Assembly: GCA_016763795.1 (NCBI GenBank)
Contig: JAESTF010000345.1
Location: 1-42,226, forward strand
From: Flavobacteriales bacterium
GTDB taxonomy: Bacteria > Bacteroidota > Bacteroidia > Flavobacteriales_E > Vicingaceae
Direction: 5' to 3'
DNA length: 42,226 nt
Shown piece after piece: positions 12,789 to 17,735 of the stretch. The notes beneath the pieces were generated by a model that made no database searches, was not told where the DNA came from, and saw only the letters and a program-made list of their open reading frames with translations. The translations under genes and the position numbers were made by a program. Each line of letters begins with the position of its first letter. Within the stretch, counting starts at the first letter, position 1.

Positions 12789-12804
12789 TCACTTGCTTTG
12801 TTCT

Positions 12805-13230
12805 ATGGAATTCAAAAACATACAAAAATTCAACCCCCGAGAGTGTATTTCGGGAAAAATAATGCGCTTAAATAGACTAACTGCAAACGTATTTAGAAAA
12901 CATCTATCTCCATTTAATATTACTGATAGTCAACTCACTTTACTTTTTATCCTTTCTAAAAAAGAGAAGTGCAATCAAAAAGAAATAAGTGATATTGCCA
13001 AGCTCGAAAAATCTTCTTTAAACAGAAATTTAACTCGTTTAATCGAAAAAGGTTTTGTCACTAAAAAAGAGTTCCCATTATTACAACTTACCCTCTCTGG
13101 AAAAGTATTTGTAAATGACATTATTCCTGAATGGGGAAAAGCAATGAACGAAATAAAAGAACTGATTTCGGAAGAAGGATTAAACGGAATAAATATAGCA
13201 TTAGATAATCTATCTAAAAACTCAACATAA
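12805..13230 (+). CDS. MarR-family transcriptional regulator
   Basis: A 141-aa winged-helix regulator. I start it at ATG 12805 (MEFKNIQKF); a TTG 12 bases earlier is also in frame but weaker. The helix-turn-helix (CNQKEISDIAKLEKSSLNRN, about residues 56-75) is followed by the wing region (LIEKGFVTKKEF). MarR proteins bind as dimers to palindromes and release DNA on ligand binding or oxidation. A 26-bp palindrome lies just upstream. The ligand and other targets are unknown; the membrane protein downstream, beyond a folded repeat, could be a target but is not clearly in the same operon. Confidence 0.88.
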   Translation: MEFKNIQKFNPRECISGKIMRLNRLTANVFRKHLSPFNITDSQLTLLFILSKKEKCNQKEISDIAKLEKSSLNRNLTRLIEKGFVTKKEFPLLQLTLSGKVFVNDIIPEWGKAMNEIKELISEEGLNGINIALDNLSKNST

Positions 13231-13236
13231 AAATAT

Positions 13237-13341
13237 TGTCAGTTCGAGTGGTTTTCGTAGAAAACTGTATCGAGAACCAATGATTTTATTAAACTGTTGT
13301 TTTCGATACAAAATTCTTACAGAATTTCACTCGAACTGACA
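13237..13341. repeat. Intergenic multi-arm palindromic element 1
   Basis: Outer stem 13237-13250 / 13328-13341 (TGTCAGTTCGAGTG and its complement, 14 bp perfect). Directly inside: hairpin 13251-13265 (GTTTTC-GTA-GAAAAC), stem 13266-13273 / 13303-13310 (TGTATCGA / TCGATACA) and hairpin 13311-13327 (AAATTCT-TAC-AGAATTT). The four helices meet with no unpaired base at the junction. It lies between two + genes and could also end the MarR transcript. Resembles TGTCA-ended intergenic repeats I recall from Flavobacteriia; copy number not checked. Confidence 0.85.
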
Positions 13342-13369: not shown

Positions 13370-14083
13370 ATGATGATTTTACAGCTTGGATACCTCGGAC
13401 TAACAACATTAATGGTAATTCTTATTTCCATTATGGGAAAAAATGCAATTGACAAAACCGTTTCTGATAAAAAAACAAGAAAGAAAAAGCTTTTCCTTTT
13501 AGTGGGAGGACTAATTCTCTGGCAACTCTATCAATTAGCAATTGGGACCTCAGGTTTCCTCACTGATTTCTCTTTACCTCCAAGGTTTTTATTCTGCTTA
13601 GTATTACCTGCATTTTTATTTACAGGTGTATTCTTAACCAAAAATAGAAAAAAAGACTGGATCATGGCTATTCCAGAGAGCTGGTTAACCTACATTCAAT
13701 CCTTTAGAATTCTAGTAGAAATTCTCTTTATCTTTTCTGTTTCTGCAGGCGTGCTTCACCCTACTGTAACGATAGAAGGTTATAATTTTGACATGATATT
13801 TGGAGCATCAGCGTTAATAATGTGGTTATTCACCTATAAAATAAAACTCATTCCTAAACCAATTTTAATACTTTGGAACTATTTAGGGATAACTATTTTA
13901 ATGTCAGTCATCTTCTTATTTGTCAGCGCTGTTTACTTTCCTAATATTTGGGGAGAAACTGAAATGATGCCAACGGAATTTGCAAAAGCTCCTTATGTTT
14001 TGGTAGCAGGATTTTTGATGCCTTCTGCAATTTTTATTCATGTTTTGTCTATTATTAGGCTAAGGAGAGAGTTACATAAATAA
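13370..14083 (+). CDS. Unknown multi-spanning membrane protein
   Basis: A 237-aa inner-membrane protein with about seven hydrophobic segments (first: LGYLGLTTLMVILISIM; last: PYVLVAGFLMPSAIFIHVLSI), a basic loop KKTRKKK after the first, and a basic tail RLRRELHK. I do not recognise the family. ATG 13370 is the first start after the folded element. It may be linked to the MarR gene 140 bases upstream, but the intervening structure could terminate transcription. Confidence 0.7.
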   Translation: MMILQLGYLGLTTLMVILISIMGKNAIDKTVSDKKTRKKKLFLLVGGLILWQLYQLAIGTSGFLTDFSLPPRFLFCLVLPAFLFTGVFLTKNRKKDWIMAIPESWLTYIQSFRILVEILFIFSVSAGVLHPTVTIEGYNFDMIFGASALIMWLFTYKIKLIPKPILILWNYLGITILMSVIFLFVSAVYFPNIWGETEMMPTEFAKAPYVLVAGFLMPSAIFIHVLSIIRLRRELHK

Positions 14084-17523: not shown

Positions 17524-17571
17524 AGATTTTGGGGCTTCCCTGCGGTCGGGCTGTGCGCTAAATCTTTTTTT
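17524..17571 (+). repeat. GC-rich element with terminator-like end
   Basis: AGATTT (17524-17529) and AAATCT (17560-17565) enclose a GC-rich core (TTCCCTGCGGTCGGGCTGTG) that stands out from the AT-rich surroundings, and a run of T follows on the + strand. I recall similar CCCTGCGGTCGGGCT elements from Bacteroidota intergenic DNA, unverified here. Confidence 0.5.
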
Positions 17572-17584
17572 CATTTTATTAAAT

Positions 17585-17630
17585 TCTCCAAGAGTTATAA
17601 TTCATTAGCTAATTAACTCTTGGAGAGTTT
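17585..17630 (+). terminator. Hairpin plus T-run with no gene upstream on this strand
   Basis: TCTCCAAGAGTTA (17585-17597) and TAACTCTTGGAGA (17614-17626) form a 13-bp perfect stem, followed by GTTTTTT on the + strand. The nearest upstream genes are on the minus strand, so it may end an unannotated small RNA or be part of a repeat. The rest of 17306-17735 shows no coding sequence I would support. Confidence 0.55.
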
Positions 17631-17735
17631 TTTCAAAAAAAAGGATATCGCTTCCATCCCTAAGCCAAACAAAACTCGTCAAAGCATTACTTCTCATATA
17701 AAACCAAAATAAACAGCTTTTAATCAACCCTCCCC

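Follow-up and report, generated by a model that had tools for sequence, protein, structure and literature searches.

A head-to-head dimer of REP-like hairpin units, very probably a non-autonomous repeat, between a MarR-family gene and a membrane-protein-like gene of a Flavobacteriales bacterium

The window, a stretch of 42,226 nt of DNA from a Flavobacteriales bacterium, contains a conspicuous palindromic element at positions 13237-13341, and this raises the question of what kind of object the element is and which of its pairings are conserved. An earlier note had described it as four perfect helices that follow one another without an unpaired base at the junction, and these helices are indeed present in the sequence. 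The outer arms at 13237-13250 (TGTCAGTTCGAGTG) and 13328-13341 (CACTCGAACTGACA) are perfectly paired over 14 bp and enclose a 6-bp hairpin GTTTTC-gta-GAAAAC at 13251-13265, an 8-bp inner stem (TGTATCGA/TCGATACA) and a 7-bp hairpin AAATTCT-tac-AGAATTT at 13311-13327. The element lies between the gene of a MarR-family regulator and a membrane-protein-like gene. The features of the locus are as follows.

12793-13230, plus strand: upstream gene for a MarR-family regulator (Pfam MarR_2, E = 7.8e-10)
13237-13341, no strand assigned: the element, a head-to-head dimer of two REP-like hairpin units (~37 copy places in its own genome; shared ends in Tenacibaculum agarivorans)
13237-13277, plus strand: unit 1, TGTCAGTTCGAGTG-hairpin-GTATCGAGAAC, an exact match to the unit pattern
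13251-13265, plus strand: variable tip hairpin of unit 1 (GTTTTCgtaGAAAAC); tip sequences vary among copies, palindromy is kept
13278-13298, no strand assigned: inter-unit spacer, 21 nt here and mostly 9-40 nt in 111 dimers
13299-13341, minus strand: unit 2, inverted, TGTCAGTTCGAGTG-AAATTCTGTAAGAATTTT-GTATCGAAAAC (positions 1430-1472 of L263 correspond to window 13299-13341)
13311-13327, minus strand: variable tip hairpin of unit 2, arms AAATTCT/AGAATTT, of the tip type AAATTCTGNAAGAATTTT that is present in most dimers of this genome
13370-14083, plus strand: downstream membrane-protein-like gene, no Pfam match

The folding energy of the element was -45.4 kcal/mol compared to a shuffle mean of -19.7 (z = -8.0; equalled by none of 200 shuffles), and its minimum-energy RNA fold is a long rod, not exactly the four-helix drawing. 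No tRNA was predicted within the element, as the earlier note had stated. Rfam gave no family over it at gathering score; the matches obtained at E ≤ 10 lay far under the curated scores, were mostly eukaryotic microRNA-like hairpins and were dismissed. A simple terminator scan of the element detected neither an intrinsic-terminator signature nor a U-run. Elsewhere in the window, the Rfam Flavo-1 RNA (RF01705, 46.6 bits, E 4.6e-07) was found between two genes at 17540-17670 on the minus strand, with an expanded central loop.

The genome from which the window was taken (G000; 3.24 Mb, 377 contigs, 75% complete) gave 54 BLAST matches to the element at ~37 places, counted by hand. Hence the dispersed, REP-like palindrome that had been proposed is multicopy, and not a single copy. 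When the copies of this genome were aligned, two near-constant blocks, TGTCAGTTCGAGTG and GTATCGAGAAC, flanked a hairpin that changed from copy to copy, and therefore the repeated object is the unit TGTCAGTTCGAGTG-hairpin-GTATCGAGAAC. It follows the pattern [T/C]GTCA-S-TTCGAGTG-(variable hairpin)-GTATCGAGAA-S, in which the two S positions pair, and is ~41-55 nt long. Single units exist besides dimers. G000 holds 23 exact matches to the pattern, which occurred in 12 of the 60 genomes searched; a reversed control pattern gave none in either search. With C or G permitted at both S positions, the unit was present in 16 of the 46 genomes of the window's family, and in a scan of named genomes at least 118 stretches carried it. 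Among the matches listed, the carriers were Tenacibaculum, Polaribacter, Winogradskyella, Lutibacter, Maribacter, Flavobacterium, Chryseobacterium, Kordia and other Bacteroidota, so that these matches spread over Flavobacteriaceae, Weeksellaceae and other Bacteroidia. There were also matches in a few MAGs with Chlorobiota or Dojkabacteria labels, which may reflect binning errors. Viral contigs gave no exact match to the unit. In draft assemblies of these bacteria, copies often lie at contig ends.

Two folds compete for such a dimer, a long-range one in which unit 1 pairs with unit 2 and a local one in which each unit forms its own hairpin, and they can be discriminated at the S positions, one directly behind GTCA and the other at the very end of the unit. 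The other stem positions of the unit are almost invariant and therefore neutral on either fold; since units were located via their conserved ends, the apparent conservation of these ends is inflated. In 454 units, collected with up to two mismatches allowed in each block, the S-S pair was G-C in 247, C-G in 126, A-T in 23, T-A in 4, G-T or T-G in 20 and another combination in 34. A standard pair occurred in 391 of 425 distinct units, compared to a mean of 214 and a maximum of 240 in 2000 shuffles in which kinship was ignored. When all four C/G combinations were permitted at S, every match listed was G..C or C..G. As four pair types occur, at least two of them within single genomes, one inherited change is an unlikely cause. 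The earlier note had looked to compensatory changes among copies as the sign of a selected fold, and such changes are thus present in the local hairpin.

The long-range fold fared differently. In 111 head-to-head dimers, the local S-S pair was standard in 209 of 222 units, whereas the equivalent inter-unit pair was formed in 37 of 111, which is below chance; it follows that the small hairpins are kept and the long palindrome is not. Dimer partners carried the same base at S in 26 cases compared to 47 expected, and none of 5000 permutations was as low. In T. agarivorans, a G-C unit stands opposite a C-G unit in nearly all copies. From these comparisons of copies, the conserved objects are two separate hairpin units, and inter-unit pairing seems to be avoided. 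The perfect outer arms of the window copy are the less common state overall, though common in its own genus. Selection for the fold, as claimed earlier, was hence retained for the hairpin inside each unit and not for the long-range outer stem, and the perfect four-helix junction was given up as the conserved fold, since about two thirds of the dimers lack inter-unit pairing at the variable position.

The orthologous locus in congeners bears on how the element came to its present place. G000 and G006 share 78% identity in their MarR proteins, and in the alignment with L264 the G006 orthologue starts at MEF, corresponding to window position 12805. The distance from the MarR stop to the next start is 2 nt in G006 and 1 nt in G004, and both congeners are without the element. 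In G000, where the start of the downstream gene that is homologous to the relatives is probably the ATG at 13373, this distance is ~142 nt and includes the 105-nt dimer. Because the element-free orthologous pairs have a gap of 1-2 nt, the dimer is taken to have been inserted in this lineage, and insertion into a tight two-gene operon would be the simplest reading of the sequences. The ends of the insertion are approximate, as the flanking bases differ between the genomes.

These observations bear on a reading of the element as a functional RNA, for example a four-way-junction cis-regulator or an sRNA acting on the membrane-protein gene. Although the predicted fold is very stable and the element is probably transcribed, both flanking genes being on the same strand, the inter-unit helices are not kept at the variable position, the orthologous gene pairs of congeners lack the element, many copies are found at other places of the genome and no Rfam family covers it. 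We consider this reading extremely improbable.

The same gene pair bears on a role as a transcription terminator or stabilizer of mRNA 3' ends, selected as such and immobile. With gene calls from simple ORF heuristics and one position per cluster, 19 of 181 clusters lay in an ORF of at least 100 aa compared to 84% of random positions, and copies were ~90% intergenic. Intergenic clusters were enriched between convergent genes (0.30 compared to 0.19 for random positions) and depleted between divergent genes (0.10 compared to 0.18). Intergenic position and this orientation bias would suit a terminator or stabilizer; against it, the element lacks a U-run and a terminator signature, its site is an abutting gene pair in relatives, and dozens of copies conserve a tag that has no role in termination. 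As the selected function this is highly improbable, although it may be a secondary effect. Such placement is typical of REPs and would be expected if insertions that damage genes or promoters are selected against.

The hairpin tips are variable in sequence but not in kind. With the long search pattern, which covered tips of 5 nt and more, 398 different tips were collected; they range from 6 to 44 nt with a mode of 18, mostly form hairpins in their own right and have a mean MFE of -3.8 kcal/mol compared to -1.1 for shuffled tips. In T. agarivorans, tips show compensatory changes, e.g., TTTCAC...GTGAAA compared to TTTTAC...GTAAAA. Neighbouring units within 120 nt were arranged head to head with the tags outside in 111 cases, with the tags inside in 53 and in tandem in 35. 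None of the 111 dimers had equal tips in both units, and the similarity of tips between dimer partners was no lower than between random partners. Most of the G000 dimers listed had exactly one tip near AAATTCTGNAAGAATTTT and never two. A second palindromic repeat (TGTCA..CTGAGTTTATCGAAG..) is nested in the tip hairpin of the unit at three loci of G000 (L018, L022 and L008) and one of G006 (L043), and at L022 the nested repeat apparently contains a further insertion. In a stronger version of the dimer reading, which we regard as possible but doubtful, the element would be the two-ended substrate of an enzyme mobilizing single-strand DNA, with left and right hairpins of fixed, different subtypes; this enzyme would read the tag and the bulged stem and ignore the tip, and the family would diversify by nesting as inserted palindromic repeats renew the tips.

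Some dimers are parts of larger elements. In G010, near-identical dimers lie within a larger MITE-like element with the inverted ends AGGGCAAACGCACTATA...TATAGTGCGTTTGCCCT (L258 ~1100-1390; L251-L257). Several copies of this carrier were seen at contig ends. The T. agarivorans genome G071 (L275-L307) contains more than 20 related 121-bp dimers with common ends TGTCA...TGACA and several different flanks outside; many of them lie within longer inverted arms (ACGTGAATCTTGGATAAG / CTTAAACGAGATTCACG) that end in CGTGAATC/GATTCACG, and others have different flanks. Dimers of the CGTC and GTAG types within palindromes are reported from other bacteria in PMC3733652. Since dimers lie inside larger elements in two genomes, part of the copy number reflects passenger amplification, and the amplification in G010 was rejected as proof of REP mobility, its copies being passengers of the larger inverted-repeat element. 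What was observed on mobility of the repeat itself is its presence or absence between species. The carriers would also fit a MITE that has TGTCAGTTCGAGTG for its terminal inverted repeats and is moved by a classical DDE transposase, as do the dispersal of the element, its inverted terminal arms and its length of ~105 bp. Set against these are the occurrence of single units, the heterotypic halves at the variable arm position, the covariation of the local hairpin in each half and the lack of an apparent target-site duplication among aligned copies, which leave a MITE highly improbable.

The earlier note had also suggested a search for a REP-associated (TnpA-type) transposase. The search for Y1 transposase genes used Pfam PF01797 and a protein query, and no Y1/RAYT gene examined in the relatives, Tenacibaculum, Maribacter and Chryseobacterium was flanked by the unit. 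RAYT genes with examined flanks had no copies of the element; some had GTAG-type hairpins of their own. A Y1 gene of the own genome (contig C134, 182 aa), whose motif YIHNNP fits subclass 2.6 of PMC6006769, was rejected as the cognate enzyme, as it bears a GTAGCT...GTAGCTAC hairpin downstream instead. Also rejected was the Y1 gene that lies ~1.1 kb from a dimer in G056, since another gene separates the two and flanking units are absent; this proximity was taken as chance. Divergent Y1 genes of Tenacibaculum and the own genus, which Pfam missed or matched weakly, had no units within 1.5 kb with one exception, a single degenerate unit ~1-1.1 kb from a Y1 gene of T. finnmarkense. The few copies at ~1.1 kb from a Y1 gene (G056, T. 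finnmarkense) look incidental. The own genome also encodes a divergent Y1 protein of 202 aa that the Pfam search overlooked. G005 and G009, which are 98-100% complete and carry 4-8 units, gave no Y1 gene by Pfam or protein query.

Several other Y1 loci were observed. A divergent Y1-like gene (189-196 aa, YINLNP) adjoins the same FAD-monooxygenase-like gene in three Tenacibaculum genomes (L319, L320 and L324 in G070, G069 and G071, respectively), and no REP units lie at its flanks; it has relatives in G000 (L330), G002, G006, G007 and G008. RAYT genes resembling subclass 2.6 at L100, L102, L108 and L112 are flanked by GTAG-type hairpins, e.g., AAGCGTAGTTGGAAACTACGCTT and GTTTGTAGCTACAAGCTACAAAC. 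Contig C27 of the own genome (L031) carries two Y1 transposases and an RHS-like protein of proteobacterial appearance, possibly a contamination.

How the repeat relates to known families was judged by its features. In the broad sense it resembles REP/BIME sequences in its many dispersed, mostly extragenic copies that can form hairpins. With the GTAG REPs, BIMEs and REPINs known from enterobacteria and pseudomonads it shares inverted two-unit dimers, often of different subtypes, and extragenic location. It differs in its tag, [T/C]GTCA instead of GT[AG]G at the hairpin foot, and whereas a REPIN/RAYT system has a cognate RAYT (Y1) gene flanked by repeats, none was found among the Y1 loci examined. 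According to PMC3733652, CGTC-tagged REPs include dRS3 of Neisseria and RPE-4/RPE-6 of Rickettsia and are reported from Bacteroidetes, with G. forsetii CGTC-positive; that text, from 2013, states that they have no dedicated transposase. As described there, the CGTC REPs and the window family have in common a C/TGTC tag at one end, the predominance of head-to-head dimers that are often heterodimers, a mostly extragenic location and the lack of a transposase gene flanked by repeats. In the 454 units, GTCA was preceded by T in 275 and by C in 151, and GTC was conserved in 96-99%; the search was anchored on GTCA, so that the conservation of GTC is partly built in, while the preceding pyrimidine is free of that bias.

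By the same descriptions, CGTC REPs have stems of 8-9 bp that start with A-T pairs, loops of 4-5 nt and an unpaired tail, mostly CCA, whereas in the window family the stem is bulged and opens with a C/G-variable pair, the tips measure 6-44 nt and are mostly hairpins, and the downstream region is A/T-rich without consensus. Its first base after the tag is A in 94% of units, the facing base is T in only 39%, and the next pair is S-S. As loop length, stem start and tail differ, the family was not filed under the four published CGTC families, from which it is set apart by their descriptions in that source; it may be identical or closely akin to the CGTC family of G. forsetii, compared by the same description. 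A short form in Bacteroidota, GTCAGTTCGAGCGGAGTCGAGAAC (L093:1392, G021, G018), has the tag and stem halves of the window unit, but a 5-nt loop in place of a hairpin tip, and occurs in 2 of the 46 genomes of the window's family. A description of the repeat family was not found in the searchable literature; searched by sequence string, the 14-mer of the element gave nothing, and the 11-mer matches among those listed look like chance primer matches.

Taken together, the element is very probably a BIME/REPIN-like dimer of a non-autonomous REP-like repeat, inserted between the MarR and membrane-protein genes. By its working it is a BIME/REPIN-type dimer, and it belongs to the known REP/BIME kind as a family that the searchable literature does not describe. 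What the sequences show directly is the number of copies, the unit and its local covariation, the arrangement in dimers with heterotypic partners, the placement between genes and the presence or absence at the orthologous locus. Each unit, with the tag [T/C]GTCA at its 5' end, would fold as a single strand into a bulged hairpin whose stem consists of S-TT/AA-S and CGA/TCG with an AG bulge, followed by the conserved GTG/GTA internal loop and a tip that would be free in sequence and constrained in pairing. The two units of a dimer, which are usually of different subtype, sit head to head at a distance of 10-40 nt and would spread together. An enzyme acting in trans, of the HUH/Y1 type by analogy or another transposase, may use the unit as a hairpin substrate in single-stranded DNA, and this putative enzyme would read the tag and the bulged stem and accept any tip. 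Unlike partners could be favoured because hairpin nucleases remove long perfect inverted repeats, or because the two ends differ in role. Now located between two cistrons, the dimer probably has a side effect on mRNA stability or coupling.

According to PMC3733652, CGTC-type REPs are the branch of REPs without a known mobilizing enzyme. With its clear units, covarying stem and bias for heterodimers, and with its many copies in Tenacibaculum, Chryseobacterium and Maribacter that are in culture, this Bacteroidota-wide family is a tractable set in which to look for such an enzyme. Annotation of the family is worthwhile, since its copies often lie at contig ends in these draft assemblies and can split the genes of one operon. 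In this family, conservation lies in the small hairpins and not in the striking long palindrome.
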